Part shown: in pieces, positions 2,539-10,322 of the stretch
Layout: each line of letters starts with the position of its first letter
Position numbering within the stretch: position 1 is the first letter of the stretch
Assembly: GCA_016793415.1 (NCBI GenBank)
Contig: JAEUMC010000336.1
Coordinates: 1-10,378 of the forward strand
Reading direction: 5' to 3'
DNA from: Devosia sp.
GTDB lineage: Bacteria; Pseudomonadota; Alphaproteobacteria; Rhizobiales; Devosiaceae
Length of the DNA stretch: 10,378 nt
Made by a program: the position numbers and the translations under genes
The notes under the pieces: generated by a model
Seen by the model: the letters and a program-made list of their open reading frames with translations, nothing else
What the model was told of the DNA's origin: nothing
The model's database searches: none

Positions 2539-4122
2539 TCAGTTCTCGACCACCACGACTTGCCACACCGCCGGGGCGGGCAGGTCGGCCGTCGCGAAAT
2601 CCCCGTCGACCGCCACCGGCAGCTCGACCAGGCGCCCCAAACCATCCGGGTCGGCGACGCGTACGCGCGGCACCCGCGTTCCCGACAGCCGGAAGCGCAG
2701 CGTTGCTGGGCCGGGATCGGCGGGGGCGGCCCGGGCGGCGTCCCACAGCGTATCGGTTTGCCCCACGAGATTGATCAGGTGGAGGATCAGGCGGTCGCCG
2801 TCGGCGACGATGCGGCGCCAGACCTTGCCGGCAGTCGCGGTCTCGCTGTGCTCGGCCCTCGCATAGCTGACGTCGATCTCGTTGTTGTAGGGGCCGGCGT
2901 ATGAGTTGGTGACGTCGGTCAGTTCCGGCGGCATCAGCAGTTCGTCATGGGCGACGAGGAAGTCGTACCAGCGCTTCAGCAGCGCTGCGGTCGAGGCTTC
3001 CATCCGGTGGTTGCGGACATAATAGGGGTCGCAGAGCAGACGGTCGGCCTCTCCGGTCAATAGTTGCGTGGCACCGTGCGAGTGGAGGGTGGCCATGGTC
3101 AGCGCCGTGGCCCGGTCAGCGGCATCGGCAGGGGCGCTGTCGTAGATGTGCTGGTAGGCGGCAAGCACCACCGGCTTGCCGTCGCCAAAGGCGCGGGCCC
3201 GGGTGACGGTGTCGGCGAGATGCTGCAGAGTCAGCTGCGGCGCCCAGGGCTCGATGTAGACGGCGTCCTGCCGGGTGGCTGCCGCCCGGCGGGTGGGGAA
3301 GTCGTTGACGTTGTTGAACACCAGATGCGCCTTGGGCAAGGCGTCGCGCACTGCTTCGATGAGTGTGACGAAGGAGGCGCCGACATCGACCGCCACACCG
3401 TCAGCGCGCTGGGCGCGTTTGGGGTAGCCGTACTGGTCGAGGTGGTAGCCATCGAAGCCGAGCGCGGCGGTGGCGGCCGCGAGGTCGGCGGTAAAGTGCT
3501 CGAGCCAATCCGGCGCCGCCGGGTCGAGGATGAAGAGGAAATCGCCAAGCCCGTAGGGAGCGCCGGTGGCGGTGAGCAGGGCCTGGTGCTGCCAGCCGTC
3601 CCACTCCTTGGGGCCGATGGCGTAGACGGCGGCGTAACCGAGAGCCCGCGCGCCGGTCTGCTGCACCGCGCCGACCAGGGCACGGACCGTGGCCAGTGCA
3701 ATCGGCTGGTCCAGCGCGTCGCGATAGCTCTCGCCGCCGCCCATGAGGTCGGCATGGCGATAGGCCCAGTCATAGAACTGCACGCCGCTCAGGTGCAGTC
3801 GCCGCACCGTATCGGTGAGCCCGGCGATGTCCTTGTCGGGGGCGTAGCTGGCGACGAAGCCGTAGCGCAGCCGCCGGCGCGGCTCGGCCGCGACTTCGAT
3901 GGCGGTGGTGAGATCGCCCACCTCGACGCTGTAGCCGCCCTCCGGCAGAACGGGCAGCAGCAGGTCGTCGCTACGCCAGTCGATCTCGGCGACGACTTCG
4001 CCCAGATGAAACACCCGCGCTAGCCCCGGCGCGACGTCGCCGCGGACCTCGATGGCGATGTTCTTGCCCGGGCGGAACGAGGCACGGCGCGGCAGCAGCT
4101 CGCGCGAAGGGTAGATCGACAT
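2539..4122 (-). CDS. GH66 family glycosidase (dextranase / cycloisomaltooligosaccharide glucanotransferase-like), no signal peptide
   Basis: This 527-residue protein is assigned to GH66, whose members cleave or cyclise alpha-1,6-glucans. The key motif GFDGYHLDQYG (222-232) carries the likely nucleophile Asp229. AVYIEPW (287-293) carries the likely acid/base Glu291, in the same order and approximate spacing as in GH66 dextranases. The layout fits: an N-terminal beta-sandwich (about 1-85), a (beta/alpha)8 barrel from RLRYGFVASY (about 85-400), and a C-terminal beta domain (about 410-527). It is shorter than most characterised GH66 enzymes and lacks their binding-module insertions. The N-terminus (MSIYPSRELLPRR) is not a signal peptide, unlike secreted dextranases, so a cytoplasmic location is inferred. 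It is the last gene of the importer operon, with its ATG 6 nt after the permease stop and an AAGGGA ribosome-binding site inside the permease's end. Likely substrate: imported isomaltooligosaccharides or cyclic isomaltooligosaccharides. Family assignment is firm; hydrolase versus transferase is open. Confidence 0.85.
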   Translation of the reverse strand: MSIYPSRELLPRRASFRPGKNIAIEVRGDVAPGLARVFHLGEVVAEIDWRSDDLLLPVLPEGGYSVEVGDLTTAIEVAAEPRRRLRYGFVASYAPDKDIAGLTDTVRRLHLSGVQFYDWAYRHADLMGGGESYRDALDQPIALATVRALVGAVQQTGARALGYAAVYAIGPKEWDGWQHQALLTATGAPYGLGDFLFILDPAAPDWLEHFTADLAAATAALGFDGYHLDQYGYPKRAQRADGVAVDVGASFVTLIEAVRDALPKAHLVFNNVNDFPTRRAAATRQDAVYIEPWAPQLTLQHLADTVTRARAFGDGKPVVLAAYQHIYDSAPADAADRATALTMATLHSHGATQLLTGEADRLLCDPYYVRNHRMEASTAALLKRWYDFLVAHDELLMPPELTDVTNSYAGPYNNEIDVSYARAEHSETATAGKVWRRIVADGDRLILHLINLVGQTDTLWDAARAAPADPGPATLRFRLSGTRVPRVRVADPDGLGRLVELPVAVDGDFATADLPAPAVWQVVVVEN

Positions 4123-4128
4123 AACGGG

Positions 4129-4950
4129 TTATCCCTTGACGGAGCCGGCGGTGAGGCCCTGGACGAAGTGGCGCTGGAAGGTGAGGAACACCGCGATGAC
4201 AGGCAGGATGGCGATGATCGAAGCGGCGAACACCAGCCCCCATTGCGTGCCCTTGGGCCCCAGCAGCAGGGCGATGGCGATGGGCAGGGTCTGGTTCTCG
4301 GGCGTGGTGATGATGGTGAGCGCCCAGGCGAACTCGTCCCAGGTGGCGAGGAAGGTGAAGATGGTGGCGGTGGCCAGGGCCGGCCGGGCCAGCGGCAGCG
4401 CCAGGCTCCAGAACCGCCGCCAGTGGCCGGCGCCGTCGATCTGCATCGCCTGGTCGAGCTCGCCCGGCAGCGCTTCGAAGAAACCGCGCAAGAGGAAGGT
4501 GTTGAGCGCCAGGTTGCCGGCCACATAGAAAATGATCAGTCCGGGCAGGCTGTCGAGCACGCCGAACCACTTGGCGAGGAGGAATTGCGGCACGATCAGC
4601 ATCATCGCCGGGATCATCAGCCCAAGCAGCAGCAGGCGGAACAGCAGCTCGCGACCGGGAAAGCGGTAGCGGGCGAAGCCATAGGCCATCATGGCGCTGA
4701 GCAGCACGGCGAGGGCGGTCGAGGTCACCGCGACGAGCAGCGAATTGACGAAGTAATGGCCGAAATCGCCGCGCAGCAGGATGCGCTCGTAGTTCGACAG
4801 CGTCGGTGGATCGGGGATGAACTGCGGCGGCAGCTTCAGCACATATTGCTGCCCCTTGAAGCTGGTCGACAGCATGTAGAGAAACGGCGTCACCATCAGC
4901 AGCGCGCCGAAGGCGAGGGCGACCAGCCGCAGGCTGCGGGCGGGGCTCAT
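4129..4950 (-). CDS. ABC sugar transporter permease, MalG type (CUT1)
   Basis: This 273-residue inner-membrane protein is one of the two permeases of a CUT1 carbohydrate importer. About six hydrophobic segments are visible, the first at residues 8-28 (LVALAFGALLMVTPFLYML). The cytoplasmic EAA loop (about 159-190) reads EALPGELDQAMQIDGAG and ends in ALPLARP; it would dock onto the ATPase. The C-terminus is the usual MalG type (FQRHFVQGLTAGSVKG). The ATG at 4948-4950 overlaps the TGA of the preceding permease as ATGA, so the two are probably translated in a coupled, equimolar way. The frame is open further upstream inside the other permease, but that extension has no homology-like character. 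Substrate specificity lies mainly in the binding protein; the downstream GH66 suggests an alpha-1,6-gluco-oligosaccharide. Confidence 0.93.
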   Translation of the reverse strand: MSPARSLRLVALAFGALLMVTPFLYMLSTSFKGQQYVLKLPPQFIPDPPTLSNYERILLRGDFGHYFVNSLLVAVTSTALAVLLSAMMAYGFARYRFPGRELLFRLLLLGLMIPAMMLIVPQFLLAKWFGVLDSLPGLIIFYVAGNLALNTFLLRGFFEALPGELDQAMQIDGAGHWRRFWSLALPLARPALATATIFTFLATWDEFAWALTIITTPENQTLPIAIALLLGPKGTQWGLVFAASIIAILPVIAVFLTFQRHFVQGLTAGSVKG

Positions 4951-5849
4951 CGAACCGCCCGGCGCGCTGACGGCGTCGCCTCCGGGTTGCGGAACAGTGT
5001 CAGCTGCAGCGCCGAGAGGGCGAAGACGATCAGCGTCAGGATCACCGCCAGGGCCGAGCCATAGCCGAAATCGAGGAACTCGAAGGCCTGCCGGTACATG
5101 TAGGTGAGCAGCACTTCGGTGGCGCCGCCAGGGCCGCCATTGGTCATCACCAGCACCGAGGCGAAGACGTTGAAGCCGCCGATCACCAGCATGATGGTGA
5201 CGAAAATGGTCGCCGGCCAGATTGCGGGCACTGTGACGGCGAGAAAACGCTGCCAGCGGTTGGCCCCGTCGATGACGGCCGCCTCCTCGAGTTCTTTCGG
5301 CACTCCCTGCAGCGCCGCAAGGAAGATCATCATCGACCAGCCGATGCCTTTCCACACACCCAGCGCACAGATGGCGACCAGCGCGGTCCAGCGGTCGGCC
5401 AGCCAGGAGATCTTGTCGGTGGCGCCCAGGAGATCATCGAGGGCGAAGTTGATCAGGCCGCGATCGGCGAACAGGTATTTGAACAGCAGCGATACCACCA
5501 CCCAGCTGGTCACCACCGGCAGGTAGTAGAGCACCCGGAACAGGGGTTGGGCCGGGCTCTTGTCCTTGAGCAGCAGCGCCACGCCGAGCCCGAGGATGAT
5601 CTGCGGCGGCACGGTGAAGGCCATGTAGATGCCGCTGTTGCTGAGCGCCAGCCAGAAGCGCGGGTCGTTGAAGGCCCGGATGTAATTGTCGAACCCGAGG
5701 AAGTTGCTGGTGGCGCCGGCGACCAGCTTCCAGTCGAACAAGCTCATCTGAGCCGCCTGCAGCATCGGGTAGACGATGCAGACGAGGAAGATGAGGAACC
5801 CCGGCGCAATGAACAGCGCCGGAGGCAACCAGGTCCGCCAGAGTTTCAT
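4947..5849 (-). CDS. ABC sugar transporter permease, MalF type (CUT1)
   Basis: This 300-residue inner-membrane permease pairs with the MalG-type protein encoded next. The first membrane segment (PPALFIAPGFLIFLVCIVYP, residues 9-28) starts right after a short basic N-terminus. The EAA loop (about 183-209) contains ELEEAAVIDGANRWQRF and ends in VTVP. The TNGGPGGAT motif (236-244) is typical of MalF/UgpA-type proteins. I chose the ATG at 5847-5849 because a strong Shine-Dalgarno (GGGAGGGG) lies about 3 nt upstream and the protein then begins as family members do. An in-frame ATG at 5928-5930 overlaps the binding-protein stop (TGATG) and would add 27 residues, but it has no visible ribosome-binding site, and the added stretch is coded largely by the hairpin at 5862-5894. 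Confidence 0.9.
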   Translation of the reverse strand: MKLWRTWLPPALFIAPGFLIFLVCIVYPMLQAAQMSLFDWKLVAGATSNFLGFDNYIRAFNDPRFWLALSNSGIYMAFTVPPQIILGLGVALLLKDKSPAQPLFRVLYYLPVVTSWVVVSLLFKYLFADRGLINFALDDLLGATDKISWLADRWTALVAICALGVWKGIGWSMMIFLAALQGVPKELEEAAVIDGANRWQRFLAVTVPAIWPATIFVTIMLVIGGFNVFASVLVMTNGGPGGATEVLLTYMYRQAFEFLDFGYGSALAVILTLIVFALSALQLTLFRNPEATPSARRAVR

Positions 5850-5861
5850 CGCCCCTCCCGC

Positions 5862-5894
5862 CTGGCGCGACACCCTTTGCGGGTGCCGCGCCAG
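5862..5894 (-). promoter_or_regulatory. Stable intercistronic hairpin between binding-protein and permease genes
   Basis: Read on the - strand, CTGGCGCGGCACCC, a 5-nt loop GCAAA, and GGGTGTCGCGCCAG form a 14-bp stem with a single G-U pair. It starts about 35 nt after the binding-protein stop and ends just before the permease's Shine-Dalgarno. No U-run follows, so a full terminator is unlikely. In several CUT1 operons (malE-malF is the known example) such a structure protects the upstream binding-protein mRNA and/or lowers expression of the permeases. That role here is inferred; the structure is seen directly. Confidence 0.7.
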
Positions 5895-5929
5895 TTTGGG
5901 GCCGGAGGCGTCGCGGACCAAGTCCGTCA

Positions 5930-7192
5930 TCAGAGGGCGCCTGACAGCAGCGGATCGATCTGCGCAGCAGCGTTGGTCAGGGCTTCCTGCACGCTGACCT
6001 TGCCCTCGAAGGCGGGCACCAGTTCAGCGTTGAGGATACCGTCGACCTTGGACGAGCCAGGGATGGCGAGGCGCGATTTCGCAGTCTTCAGCTGTTCGGC
6101 GAAGGGCGCGAGGAACGGCAGGATTTCCGCCTGCTTGTCGGCAAAGGCGGGGATCACCGTCATCTGGCCGGTCTTCGCCATCTCGATCTGGAATTGCTCG
6201 GACTGAGTGAAGCGGATGAACTCGAGCGCTGCTTCCTGGTTCTTGCTGGCAGTGGTGAGGACGATATCCTCGCCGCCGACGACGCTGACCGAACCGCCCG
6301 GACCTGCCGGCACCGGCGCGTAGACCGGGGTGAAATCGGGGTATTGCTCCGCCCAGATGCCGGCCATCCACGGACCATCGAGGATGGTGGCATAGTTCTC
6401 CGACGGCAGCCCGTCCGAGGTGCCGGTGGCGCCCTGATTGCCGATGATCAGGTTGGGGATCTGCCCCGCGGCATAGAGATCGACCAGCATCTGCACGGCG
6501 GCGACGCTTTCGGGGCTGTCGAGGTAACCCGAGGCCTTGGTCAACTCGGCGTCGGTGACATTGCCGCCGCCCGACCAGATCCACGGAAAGAGGTTCCAGC
6601 CGCCGAGCCCGCCATCGGCGAACACCTGGATATCGGTGCCCTTCAGTTTTTCGGCCAGCGCCTTCAGCTCGTCGAAGCTGGCGGGCGGCGCGCTGACACC
6701 GGCCTGGTCGAGCGCGGCCTGGTTGACCACCAGCACGCGGGTATTGGTGTCGAGCGGCAGACCGTAATATTTGCCCTTGTAGAGGTTGGTGGCGAGCGTG
6801 CCCGGATAGGTCGCGTCGGCAAAGGTCTGGAAATCCGGCATGGCGTCGCTCAGCGCCACCAGCACGCCGAGATCGGCGAATTGCGGTACCCAGCCGAGGT
6901 CGGCGCGCACCAGGTCGGGCAGCTCGCCGCCGGCGGCACTGGTGGTCAGTTTCTGCAGCAGCGAGTCATAGGGCACGTCGACATACTTGATCTTGATGCC
7001 GGGATGCGCCGCCTCGAAGGCCGGGATCAGCGTGCTGTTCAGCGCATCCTGCTGGGTCGAGTTGCCGCCATTGCCGTAGGCGCCCCAGAAGGTGACGGTG
7101 ACGTCTTCGGCAAGCGCCGGGAGCGCCGCAAACAGCGCCGCGCCGGCGACCAGCGACAGCAACGCGCCGCGGCGCGTCGGATAAATGGTCAT
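5930..7192 (-). CDS. Extracellular solute-binding protein family 1, ABC sugar transporter
   Basis: This 420-residue periplasmic protein should capture the sugar for the importer. Residues 1-28 form a signal peptide: TRR, then the hydrophobic run ALLSLVAGAALFAALPALA, with likely cleavage after ALA and before EDVTVTFWGAYG. The TRRGALL stretch has a twin arginine but lacks the usual Phe of a Tat motif, so Sec export is as likely. The mature part shows typical family-1 elements: early IPAFEAAHPGIKIKYVDVPY, then VRADLGWVPQFADLGVLVAL, then YYGLPLDTNTRVLVVN, and late VVGGEDIVLTTASKNQEAAL, where the domain hinge and sugar pocket usually lie. The ATG at 7190-7192 is preceded by GAGGAGG (7201-7207) at 8-nt spacing. 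It is the first gene of the importer operon, divergent from a ROK regulator. Ligand is not readable from sequence; alpha-1,6-gluco-oligosaccharides are inferred from the GH66 partner, with fructo-oligosaccharides or difructose anhydride as alternatives because of the neighbouring GH91 and GH32 genes. Confidence 0.93.
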   Translation of the reverse strand: MTIYPTRRGALLSLVAGAALFAALPALAEDVTVTFWGAYGNGGNSTQQDALNSTLIPAFEAAHPGIKIKYVDVPYDSLLQKLTTSAAGGELPDLVRADLGWVPQFADLGVLVALSDAMPDFQTFADATYPGTLATNLYKGKYYGLPLDTNTRVLVVNQAALDQAGVSAPPASFDELKALAEKLKGTDIQVFADGGLGGWNLFPWIWSGGGNVTDAELTKASGYLDSPESVAAVQMLVDLYAAGQIPNLIIGNQGATGTSDGLPSENYATILDGPWMAGIWAEQYPDFTPVYAPVPAGPGGSVSVVGGEDIVLTTASKNQEAALEFIRFTQSEQFQIEMAKTGQMTVIPAFADKQAEILPFLAPFAEQLKTAKSRLAIPGSSKVDGILNAELVPAFEGKVSVQEALTNAAAQIDPLLSGAL

Positions 7193-7258: not shown

Positions 7259-7268
7259 ATGCTGTCAA
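7241..7268 (-). promoter_or_regulatory. Sigma70-type promoter of the importer-GH66 operon
   Basis: On the - strand a perfect -35 TTGACA (7263-7268) is followed after 16 nt by CATAAA (7241-7246), a 4-of-6 match to the -10. Transcription would start near 7233, giving a leader of about 40 nt that contains the inverted repeat at 7212-7231 and the Shine-Dalgarno. Confidence 0.6.
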
Positions 7269-7355: not shown

Positions 7356-8513
7356 ATGCGGATCACCACGCCCCGATGGATGCCCGGCAACGGTGCGATG
7401 CGCGCCGTGGCGCTCGAGGTGCTGATCCACGGTCCGCTGTCGCGCAGCGAGGTGGCGCGCCGGCTCGACCTGTCGCCCGGCTCGCTCACCCGTTTGTCGA
7501 CGCCGCTGCTCGAATCCGGCCTCCTGGTCGAGGCCGGCGAGCAGGTCGACGGCCGGGTCGGTAGGCCGTCACAACTGCTCGACGTGGTGCCGGCGTCGCG
7601 CCGCTTCATCGGCATGAAGCTGATGGCCGACGAGGTGGTGGGGGTGACGACGGATCTGCGCGCCAACGTGCTGTCGAGCGAAGCCCGAAGCTTGGCGGAC
7701 CGGGCCCCCGATGCAGTGGCTGACGTGATCGCCGATCTCACCCGTTCATTGGCGCGTGGCACGCCCGAGGTGATGGCGCTCGGCATCGGCATAGGCGGGT
7801 TTCTGGGCGAACATGGGCACGTGCTGAGCGCACCATTCCTCGGCTGGGAGGATGTGCAGCTCGGCGCCATGATCGAGGCGCGCACCGGCATCCCGACGCT
7901 GGTCGAGAACGATCTCGTGGCCTTCACCGAATACGAGCATTGGTTCGGCGCCGGCCGCGGGCTCGACCGCTTTGCGGTGGTGACGCTGGGGGCAGGGGTC
8001 GGCTACGGCCTCGTCATCCACGACGAGATCGTGCGCAATGACGAGTTCGGCATTGGGCTGGTCGGCCATTGGCCGCTCGATCCTTTCGGGCCGGTCTGCT
8101 CGGAGGGCCACCGCGGCTGCGCCAAGGCGGTCCTCACCGACACCGCGATCGTGCAGGCGGTAACGCAGGCGCTCGGCCGCAGCGTCAGCTATGGCGAGGC
8201 GCTCGATCTCGCGGTTGCGGGTGAGCCGGCGGCGCGGCGGGTCATCGACGATGCCGGGCGTGGACTCGGGCGGTTGCTCGCCGCTGTCGCCAACCTCACC
8301 ATGCCGCAAACCGTGATCCTCGGTGGGGAAGGGGTGCGGCTTGCCGAGGTGGCGGGCGACGCGATCAACACCGGGATCGCTGGTGATCGCGATCCTCGGA
8401 CCAAGCCGATCCCGCTGACCATCCGCTCGGGCGAGAATATCGAGTGGTGCCGCGGCGCGGCGTGCGTGGCGGTGCAGGCGTTCGTGCTGGGACGGCGGAG
8501 TGCGGAGGGGTGA
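7356..8513 (+). CDS. ROK-family transcriptional repressor
   Basis: This 385-residue protein has an N-terminal winged helix-turn-helix (about 12-60, LSRSEVARRLDLSPGSLTRL) and a ROK sugar-kinase-like domain from about 83 on (GIGIGGFL 143-150, LVENDLVAF 182-190 with END, LGAGVGYGLV 211-220, TVILGGEGV 319-327). It probably represses the divergent importer operon and responds to a sugar. The N-terminal ATP motif (DxGGT) is not present, arguing for a regulator rather than a kinase. The ROK zinc site is altered: His238, Cys248 and Cys255 are kept, but the middle Cys of the usual CxC is Glu250. The ATG at 7356 was chosen because GAGGAG (7343-7348) lies 7 nt upstream; an in-frame ATG at 7278 would add 26 residues and reach into the control region without a good ribosome-binding site. 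NagC/Mlc/XylR-type proteins are the nearest known relatives by architecture. Confidence 0.9.
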   Translation: MRITTPRWMPGNGAMRAVALEVLIHGPLSRSEVARRLDLSPGSLTRLSTPLLESGLLVEAGEQVDGRVGRPSQLLDVVPASRRFIGMKLMADEVVGVTTDLRANVLSSEARSLADRAPDAVADVIADLTRSLARGTPEVMALGIGIGGFLGEHGHVLSAPFLGWEDVQLGAMIEARTGIPTLVENDLVAFTEYEHWFGAGRGLDRFAVVTLGAGVGYGLVIHDEIVRNDEFGIGLVGHWPLDPFGPVCSEGHRGCAKAVLTDTAIVQAVTQALGRSVSYGEALDLAVAGEPAARRVIDDAGRGLGRLLAAVANLTMPQTVILGGEGVRLAEVAGDAINTGIAGDRDPRTKPIPLTIRSGENIEWCRGAACVAVQAFVLGRRSAEG

Positions 8514-8721: not shown

Positions 8722-9594
8722 CTACACCCGCTTGGTCGACAGCACGTCGAACGTCCGCTCGATGGTCGACACGGCACGGTCGTAATCTGCCAGCGCCAGG
8801 GCGGCGATCAGGGCGTCGATGATGGCGAGCTGGGCGATGCGGCTGGTCATCGCTTCGGTGCGGAACTGGGTTTCGCGGGCGAGCGTGTTGAGCACGACAT
8901 CGGCGTGGCTGAGGATCGGCGACTTGCCGAAATTGGTGACGACGATGGTGGTGGCGCCAGCCTCCTTGGCGAGGCGGGTGGCGGTGAGGGTTTCGATGGT
9001 CGAGCCCGAATGCGAGATGGTGAGCACCGCGACATCGGGGGTGGACAGCGCCGCAGTGATCGCCTGCACATGGCTGTCGACGGTGGCGCGCGAATTGATG
9101 CCGATGCGCAGGAGTCGGTAGTTGGCATCCTCGGCGATGGTGGCGGCGCTGCCGATGCCGAACACTTCGACCCGGCTCGCCTTGCGGATGGCGGCGACGG
9201 CCCGGCTCAGCTGGCCGAGGTCGAGCGCCTTCTGGGTGTCGTGCAGCGCCTGCAGGTCGGAGCGGAAGATCTTGTCGACGACGGTCGCCAGATCGTCGTT
9301 GGGTTCGAGATCCTCGTGGATGAACTGCACCGGCTGCACCAGGTCGCGGGCGATGGCGATCTTGACCTGCTGGAAGCCGCGCGCCCCGAGCTGCTGGCAG
9401 AGGCTGATGACGCTGCCTTCGCTGGAGCCGGAGCGCTCCGCCACTTCGGTCACCGACATATGGACGACGTCGGCGGCATTGGCGGTGATGAAATCGGCGA
9501 TGCGGCCGGCAGTGGGCGGCAGGTTCGGCCTCAGCGCCGCGATGCGGTCGAGGATGCCGGAGAGCTGGCCCGGTTCGGTGCGCTCGGTGCTCAT
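8722..9594 (-). CDS. RpiR/MurR-family transcriptional regulator with SIS domain
   Basis: This 290-residue regulator has an N-terminal HTH-6 domain (about 8-85, with MSVTEVAERSGSSEGSVISL at 46-65) and a C-terminal SIS domain (about 128-260). The SIS domain contains FGIGSA (145-150) and the sugar-phosphate loop ISHSGST (193-199), which binds phosphorylated sugars or amino sugars in relatives. It probably senses a sugar phosphate and controls its own operon or a nearby catabolic set. The ATG at 9592-9594 overlaps the stop of the preceding HAD gene as ATGA, implying coupled translation. The frame is open far upstream to the window edge, but that part lies antiparallel in phase within the HAD gene and looks like an arginine-rich shadow. 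The gene ends at a TAG (8722-8724) before the palindromic repeats. Family assignment is firm; effector and targets are not visible. Confidence 0.92.
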   Translation of the reverse strand: MSTERTEPGQLSGILDRIAALRPNLPPTAGRIADFITANAADVVHMSVTEVAERSGSSEGSVISLCQQLGARGFQQVKIAIARDLVQPVQFIHEDLEPNDDLATVVDKIFRSDLQALHDTQKALDLGQLSRAVAAIRKASRVEVFGIGSAATIAEDANYRLLRIGINSRATVDSHVQAITAALSTPDVAVLTISHSGSTIETLTATRLAKEAGATTIVVTNFGKSPILSHADVVLNTLARETQFRTEAMTSRIAQLAIIDALIAALALADYDRAVSTIERTFDVLSTKRV

Positions 9595-10322
9595 GCGGGA
9601 GTGAGCTCGCGCAACGCCTCGTTCAAGCCACCCGGCACCGCTTGCCAGAACGTCATGCCCAGCGCCCGGGCGCCGGCGCCGTCGGTCAGGGGGTTGTCGC
9701 CGATCATCACGCCTTCCTCCGGCTCGATGCCGAGCCGCTCGCAGCCCAGCCGGAACAGTGCCGGCTCGGGCTTGCCGATCACCGTATGCGGTACCGGACC
9801 GGCACAGGCAAGCACGGCGGCCGCCAGGGCTCCGGCTTCGGGCACCGGCTGGCCGCTGGGGCCCGGATGGGTGGTGTCCGGGCAGGCGACGTAGAGTTCG
9901 GCGCCGCGGGCCATCGCCTCGGCGGCGGCGGCAAGCTTGCCGTAGTTGAAGCGCCGGTCGCGCGCCACCAGCACCACATCGGTTTCCGGCTGATCGACAT
10001 CGAGGCCAAGCCGCCGCGCATAGGCGCGGAGCGGGGTCGAGCCGATCACCATCACCCGGGCACGCGGGTGGCGCCGGGCAATGGTCTCGAGGGCGCAGGT
10101 GCCGGCAAGGATGATGCGGTCGGCCGGGATGGCGATGCCGAGGTCGGCAAAGCGGCTCATCAGCTGCAGCGGTGTATGCTCGGAATCGTTGGAGACGATG
10201 ACGAAGCGGCCCTCGAGCCGGCTCAGCAGCTCGCGCGCGCCCGGCAACAGGTGCCGGCCGCTCATCAAGGTCCCGTCGAGATCGATGAGGTAGCCGCGTG
10301 CGGAATGCACATTGGGCAGCAA
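9591..10322 (-). CDS. HAD superfamily phosphatase, NagD-like (subfamily IIA)
   Basis: This 243-residue cytoplasmic phosphatase shows all four HAD motifs: DLDGT with nucleophile Asp14 and Asp16, Ser44 in VIVSND, Lys184 in VIGKPEP, and Asp209 in MIGDNPLTD. The cap domain between motifs II and III (about 50-180) and the GKPEP motif are typical of NagD/AraL-type enzymes, which dephosphorylate sugar phosphates, nucleotides or related small molecules with low specificity. The start is taken as TTG at 10320-10322 because GGGAG lies 7 nt upstream and the HAD core begins soon after; a GTG at codon 5 is the alternative. It is the first gene of a two-gene unit with the RpiR regulator. A role in clearing a sugar phosphate sensed by that regulator is a reasonable inference, but no substrate can be named. 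Confidence 0.88.
   Translation of the reverse strand: MLPNVHSARGYLIDLDGTLMSGRHLLPGARELLSRLEGRFVIVSNDSEHTPLQLMSRFADLGIAIPADRIILAGTCALETIARRHPRARVMVIGSTPLRAYARRLGLDVDQPETDVVLVARDRRFNYGKLAAAAEAMARGAELYVACPDTTHPGPSGQPVPEAGALAAAVLACAGPVPHTVIGKPEPALFRLGCERLGIEPEEGVMIGDNPLTDGAGARALGMTFWQAVPGGLNEALRELTPA

Follow-up and report, generated by a model that had tools for sequence, protein, structure and literature searches.

A carbohydrate importer operon that ends in a GH66 gene

We analysed a 10,378-nucleotide stretch of DNA from the alphaproteobacterium Devosia sp. (contig JAEUMC010000336.1 of assembly GCA_016793415.1; the whole stretch is referred to below as the window), in which an operon joins a sugar importer of the CUT1 type to an enzyme of glycoside hydrolase family 66 (GH66). 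The four genes lie on the minus strand and are read in the order solute-binding protein (SBP), permease, permease and GH66 enzyme (Table 1). They are tightly packed, with an overlap of 1 nucleotide between the SBP gene and the first permease gene, an overlap of 4 nucleotides between the permease genes and a 6-nucleotide gap ahead of the GH66 gene. The permeases score 69.8 and 73.3 bits against the Pfam profile. While an ATPase gene is absent from the operon, the window genome holds 16 MalK-type OB domains above the cut-off, so that the SBP and two permeases have the makings of a CUT1 importer whose ATPase is encoded elsewhere. Taken with the comparisons below, the operon is probably an uptake-and-cut system for alpha-1,6-linked gluco-oligosaccharides; the divergent ROK-family regulator is its probable controller.

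Table 1. Features of the window, by position on the 10,378-nucleotide stretch
Feature	Positions	Strand	Basis or remark
SBP (SBP_bac_1), N-terminal signal peptide by eye	7192-5930	minus	Pfam, 141.6 bits
CUT1-type permease, MalF/UgpA type	5930-4947	minus	Pfam BPD_transp_1
CUT1-type permease, MalG/UgpE type, ATG start read at 4950	4950-4129	minus	Pfam BPD_transp_1
GH66 enzyme of 527 aa with D229/E291 at catalytic positions; signal-like N-terminus and CBM35 insertion both absent	4122-2539	minus	
ROK-family regulator, divergent	7356-8513	plus	start 7356 probable by homology; frame open from 7278
NagC/Mlc-like operator candidate TTATTTCCGCCATAAAACAA	7237-7256	minus	palindrome between ROK and SBP genes
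GH91 C-terminal part, best match DFA-IIIase 5zks, 327 bits	2-805	plus	truncated by contig end
GH32 enzyme	about 802-2484	plus	Pfam; downstream of GH91 part, convergent with GH66
RpiR-type regulator	8722-9594	minus	profile search
HAD-IIA phosphatase	9591-10322	minus	profile search

The operon layout recurs across phyla

The locus was compared with 58 others taken from named genome records (entries L002-L007, which mostly duplicate places within L008-L053, stand outside the 58). The SBP, both permeases and GH66 are present in the same order and with orthologue-level scores at 42 of these loci, mostly from Actinomycetota, and because of this recurrence we do not regard the layout as a chance arrangement. 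A ROK gene accompanies all 42, though not always divergently. Five more loci are truncated by contig ends yet consistent with the four-gene order, five (L048, L051 and L062-L064) have a clearly different CUT1 importer, and the other six gave no scored importer next to the GH66 gene: L040, L057 and L059 (contig edges), L065, L046 and L047, the last two of which have a different importer upstream, beyond the ROK gene. A prior sequence-only reading of the window had described an importer operon with GH66 as its last gene and had proposed a survey for signal-less GH66 genes beside CUT1 genes; the gene coordinates and Pfam matches of Table 1 confirm the former, and the counts given here, together with the N-termini described below, are the outcome of the latter.

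Two groups of loci depart from this pattern. L046, L047, L048 and L051 encode members of the same signal-less GH66 clade near a CUT1 importer that is not orthologous (27-33% identity), and here an exchange of the importer around a retained GH66 seems to have taken place; GH31 is also present at L046 and L047. At L062-L064 (Spirochaetales, Aeriscardovia), a distant GH66 (28-32%) with no signal-like N-terminus sits beside CUT1 permeases, and the combination of importer and signal-less GH66 may therefore have arisen more than once.

Many of the loci also encode a GH13 protein, which reaches at least 250 bits against that of Devosia 66-14 at 43 of the 58. All 43 carry the motif GFRMDV, in which we take the Val after the nucleophile to be a mark of 1,6-specificity. 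The Devosia 66-14 protein, the only one of the 43 compared with structures, is closest to a glucan 1,6-alpha-glucosidase (4aie, 646 bits). A weaker GH13 was found at six of the remaining loci and none at nine.

The GH66 enzyme is a signal-less family member

The window protein is a full-length family member, matching Glyco_hydro_66 at 270.2 bits against a cut-off of 23.7 over positions 3-546 of the 546-position profile. In an alignment with FjGH66 its D229 and E291 fall opposite Asp293 and Glu355 (a chain-to-residue offset of 10 was applied), which are named as the catalytic pair in the available text of PMC10316084, and both residues are invariant in an alignment of 22 sequences, the window protein and 21 picked from at least 120 homologues. 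By hydropathy and position the enzyme has no signal peptide, the Pfam domain beginning at residue 13 of a 529-codon open frame. Likewise, none of the 55 orthologous loci with a callable start (of the 58; judged by eye) shows a signal-like N-terminus, and the most hydrophobic one (L051, 2.3) falls inside the first strand of the domain itself. The earlier claims that both catalytic residues are present and that the enzyme lacks a signal peptide thus hold. The one apparent long fusion (L008, 1254 codons) is an artefact in which a run of N is followed by a spurious frame.

GH66 includes both dextranases and cycloisomaltooligosaccharide glucanotransferases (CITases). An insertion of CBM35 in the catalytic barrel is described as specific to CITases (PMC10316084, available text), and the 527-residue window enzyme shows Glyco_hydro_66 alone; it therefore looks like a hydrolase, and its candidacy as a ring former is not supported.

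Some relatives encode a second GH66, mostly with the ring-forming architecture

The genomes behind 48 of the 58 loci were searched for additional GH66 proteins (L038-L040, L057-L059 and L062-L065 were set aside). In nine, including L047 with its importer of a different type, a further GH66 above the cut-off lies near the signal-less one; three of these nine have a third match elsewhere, in one case with internal stops. All nine second enzymes have a signal-type N-terminus by eye, and in eight a CBM35/CBM6-like module lies within the enzyme, which is the ring-forming architecture. This module is weak in L047 (30 bits) and is best called CBM6 in L014 and L030, and six of the eight end in a ricin-B domain. 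The second GH66 of Arthrobacter terricola (L061:8808-11057) adjoins the operon, has no CBM35 insertion and carries an RR-type (Tat-like) N-terminus, features that by domain content make it dextranase-like rather than CITase-like. No second GH66 above the cut-off was found in the other 39 genomes, one of which has a sub-threshold match. The control genome of Thermotoga maritima also gave a GH66 match.

The binding protein is related to a cyclic isomaltooligosaccharide-binding protein

Among solved structures the closest relative of the window SBP is TdCIBP of Tepidibacillus decaturensis (288 bits); the runner-up is a maltose-binding protein at 124 bits, and CMMBP (7bvt) scores 102 bits. TdCIBP binds the cyclic isomaltooligosaccharides (CIs) CI7-CI9 at 0.045-0.11 µM and linear IG4-IG7 at 0.32-1.1 µM, according to the available text of PMC13084667. 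Eight of its 15 sugar-contacting positions are retained in the window SBP (Y94, R115, D117, N168, W217, W290, E322 and R389). Across the 42 orthologous SBPs, R115, D117, N168, W217, W290 and R389 are retained without exception and E322 in 41. By these comparisons the ligand is probably an alpha-1,6-gluco-oligosaccharide, cyclic and/or linear.

A candidate operator lies between the ROK and SBP genes

Ahead of the SBP gene, the intergenic region contains a palindrome resembling NagC/Mlc operators (Table 1), which directly follows a TTGACA hexamer (7263-7268). A total of 34 ROK-SBP regions (the window and 33 loci) were scanned for the NagC/Mlc-like consensus, and each was scored against 100 mononucleotide shuffles. 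At most 5 of 100 shuffles matched the score of the candidate in 26 of these regions, and none did so in the window; in the other eight, four of them from Cellulomonas, the site does not pass this mark. The divergent ROK regulator probably controls the operon.

The operon is co-inherited within Devosia

GH66 is present in 7 of 19 genomes of the genus Devosia, in 8 of 136 across the family Devosiaceae and in 1 of 297 in a sample of the order, namely the window genome itself. An SBP orthologue (77-100% identity) occurs in exactly the seven GH66-bearing Devosia genomes, the other 12 giving no match better than E 4e-34, and the GH13 (72-100%) occurs in five of the seven and in none of the 12. Devosia sp. 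ZB163 (L009) is one named strain that carries an orthologous operon. A search for GH49 dextranases matched none of the 19 genomes, but the positive control was equally silent, so the absence of GH49 is not established.

In a midpoint-rooted GH66 tree of 52 rows (the window and 51 of the 58 loci, with L029, L031, L038-L040, L058 and L065 left out), the eight alphaproteobacterial rows group together among Actinomycetota as a single clade (100/98). Support is moderate for the forks within which this clade is nested (80/90, 88/82, 84/79 and 91/93), and the tree is rooted only at its midpoint; acquisition of the operon by Devosiaceae from Actinomycetota is therefore likely rather than proven. In the same tree L050, titled Xylanimonas cellulosilytica, groups with Schaalia/Actinomyces, and its label may be wrong.

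A proposed pathway and its alternatives

From gene content and order, catalytic residues, kinships and co-inheritance we infer the ligand, localisation, direction of flow and regulation of the following model. Cyclic isomaltooligosaccharides released by other bacteria, linear ones, or both would enter the periplasm and be bound by the SBP, then pass through the two permeases, with a MalK-type ATPase from another locus providing the energy. The signal-less GH66 would open or cut them in the cytoplasm, the GH13 oligo-1,6-glucosidase would trim the fragments to glucose, and the sugar would relieve repression by the ROK protein. In the window genome another alpha-glucosidase presumably replaces the GH13. 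In that genome (82.5% complete) one GH66 and no ring former were found, for which reason the operon probably serves scavenging there. Uptake of intact alpha-1,6-gluco-oligosaccharides and their cleavage inside the cell, as the sequence-only reading had proposed, is well supported by the kinship of the SBP with TdCIBP, the GH13 partner, the CITase-like neighbours in some relatives and co-inheritance; by sequence the ligands may be cyclic or linear.

Several observations weigh against this model. Neither the window genome, whose two other GH13 proteins have 39 and 36% identity, nor a further GH66-bearing Devosia genome that is 99% complete (G015) yielded the dedicated GH13, and no second GH66 turned up in the GH66-bearing Devosia genomes searched. 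The enzyme scores 157 bits against the NCBIfam model for BT3087-type endo-dextranase, below its cut-off of 730. Seven of the 15 contact positions of the SBP are changed relative to TdCIBP (T61A, S63G, D64S, E66Q, R91D, W275S and D403N, with an uncertain alignment in the Thr61-Glu66 loop), and its ligand may accordingly be something other than CI7-9. Nine residues are reported as conserved in four CITase-linked CI-binding proteins (Glu66, Arg91, Arg115, Asp117, Asn168, Trp217, Trp275, Trp290 and Arg389; PMC13084667, available text), and the window SBP keeps six, with Gln, Asp and Ser in place of Glu66, Arg91 and Trp275. Three distant SBPs in the alignment share D117, N168, W290, E322 and R389 with the window SBP, and the maltose SBP shares R115; few of the kept residues are therefore specific, W217 being the more telling one. 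As judged from the alignment, the two-glucose inner site looks the same as in TdCIBP and the outer platform looks different, as would be expected if the ligand were an alpha-1,6-glucan that differs in size or shape.

It is quite possible, if somewhat short of probable, that the system is purely linear, the SBP taking up the products of other organisms' dextranases and cyclic sugars being no natural ligand. The absence of Trp275, one of the residues conserved in the CITase-linked proteins and Trp in none of the 42 orthologues, fits this possibility, as do the 39 of 48 genomes lacking a second GH66 above the cut-off and the binding of linear IG4-IG7 by TdCIBP itself. On the other hand, eight of the nine second GH66s are of the ring-forming type with an inserted CBM35, and we would expect an endo-enzyme to be needed for ring opening, whereas short chains could be trimmed by GH13 alone.

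The remaining alternatives concern the neighbouring genes and the place of cleavage. The GH91 part and GH32 beside GH66 likely form a pair for the use of difructose anhydride (DFA) III or inulin, and could point to a fructose dianhydride, or else to an unrelated or branched glucan fragment (e.g. alternan, pullulan), as the ligand of a system whose GH66 has shifted specificity. We consider this improbable: the SBP, GH13 and GH66 kinships all indicate alpha-1,6-glucan, and tblastn found neither GH91 nor GH32 in the available flanks of L002-L065, many of which end at contig ends. Since these genes were not found in those flanks we rejected the difructose anhydride link, and by this comparison both neighbours lie outside the conserved operon. 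The RpiR-type regulator and HAD-IIA phosphatase were likewise not found by tblastn in loci L002-L065. Export of GH66 by a non-classical route, with action in the periplasm or outside the cell, appears more improbable still; some characterised GH66s are surface-bound, among them FjGH66 with its type II signal peptide (PMC10316084, available text), but the present clade has no signal-like N-termini, whereas the nearby second GH66 has one in every case, and the gene sits in an importer operon.

A broader version of the uptake-and-cut model can be offered only tentatively. These operons might represent a separate, cross-phylum class of importers for CIs or isomaltooligosaccharides, suited to a smaller ring (such as cycloisomaltotetraose, CI4) or a short chain and with a cytoplasmic GH66 in the operon; Devosiaceae would have taken the whole operon from Actinomycetota and would scavenge the rings of neighbouring actinobacteria, turning a private good into a shared one. 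If Devosia does scavenge the rings of others, CIs would be no private store. The compact operons join importer, cutter and regulator, and their presence or absence varies between congeners, which lends them to clean tests; with its changed pocket, the SBP offers a natural comparison for what determines preference for rings or chains.

Relation to known systems

The dextranase with which Paenibacillus sp. 598K degrades CIs inside the cell reportedly belongs to GH66. Enzymes with the order GH66-CBM35-CBM13 from Agreia and Microbacterium are said to form CI4, with a gene cluster nearby, though our literature search gave no such paper; six of the nine second GH66s share this domain order and come from the same broad actinobacterial group, whereas the window genome lacks a CI4-type partner. 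According to the available text of PMC13084667 (citing Mizushima 2019), CIs imported by Paenibacillus sp. 598K are broken down by an intracellular dextranase that is inducible, the role proposed here for the window GH66, in a member of the Bacillota. In T. decaturensis, TdCIBP belongs to an ABC importer and the genome encodes an intracellular dextranase, while direct evidence for substrate translocation is lacking (same source). The pathway was thus already published for Bacillota, with CI uptake, an intracellular dextranase and a CI-binding importer protein, and the earlier statement that no described system was known fails as far as the pathway is concerned. Among the titles and abstracts listed in our searches, none describes an in-operon GH66, the altered pocket or an occurrence in Pseudomonadota.

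With T. decaturensis the window shares the SBP family, an operon without ATPase, the inner-site residues and, by prediction, an intracellular dextranase encoded in the genome and an alpha-1,6-glucan ligand. The T. decaturensis cluster contains a CITase and the GH15 46GT, and nothing in the available text puts the gene for the intracellular dextranase into the importer operon (PMC13084667); in the window the importer operon closes with a signal-less GH66, the SBP differs at Trp275 and in the Thr61-Glu66 loop, and a CITase was not found. CMMBP, a cyclic alpha-glucan uptake system (PMC13084667, available text), is similar in binding and importing intact rings but differs in its alpha-1,4 or mixed linkages and its SBP subfamily. 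The FjGH66 endodextranase, from a Bacteroidota dextran locus, is predicted to be a lipoprotein of the outer membrane and is encoded in a SusC/D locus, unlike the window enzyme (PMC10316084, available text). The idea of the pathway is therefore not new; what is different here is that GH66 lies in the importer operon, that the operon probably reached Devosiaceae from Actinomycetota, that Trp275 of the outer pocket is absent and that there is mostly no ring-forming partner.
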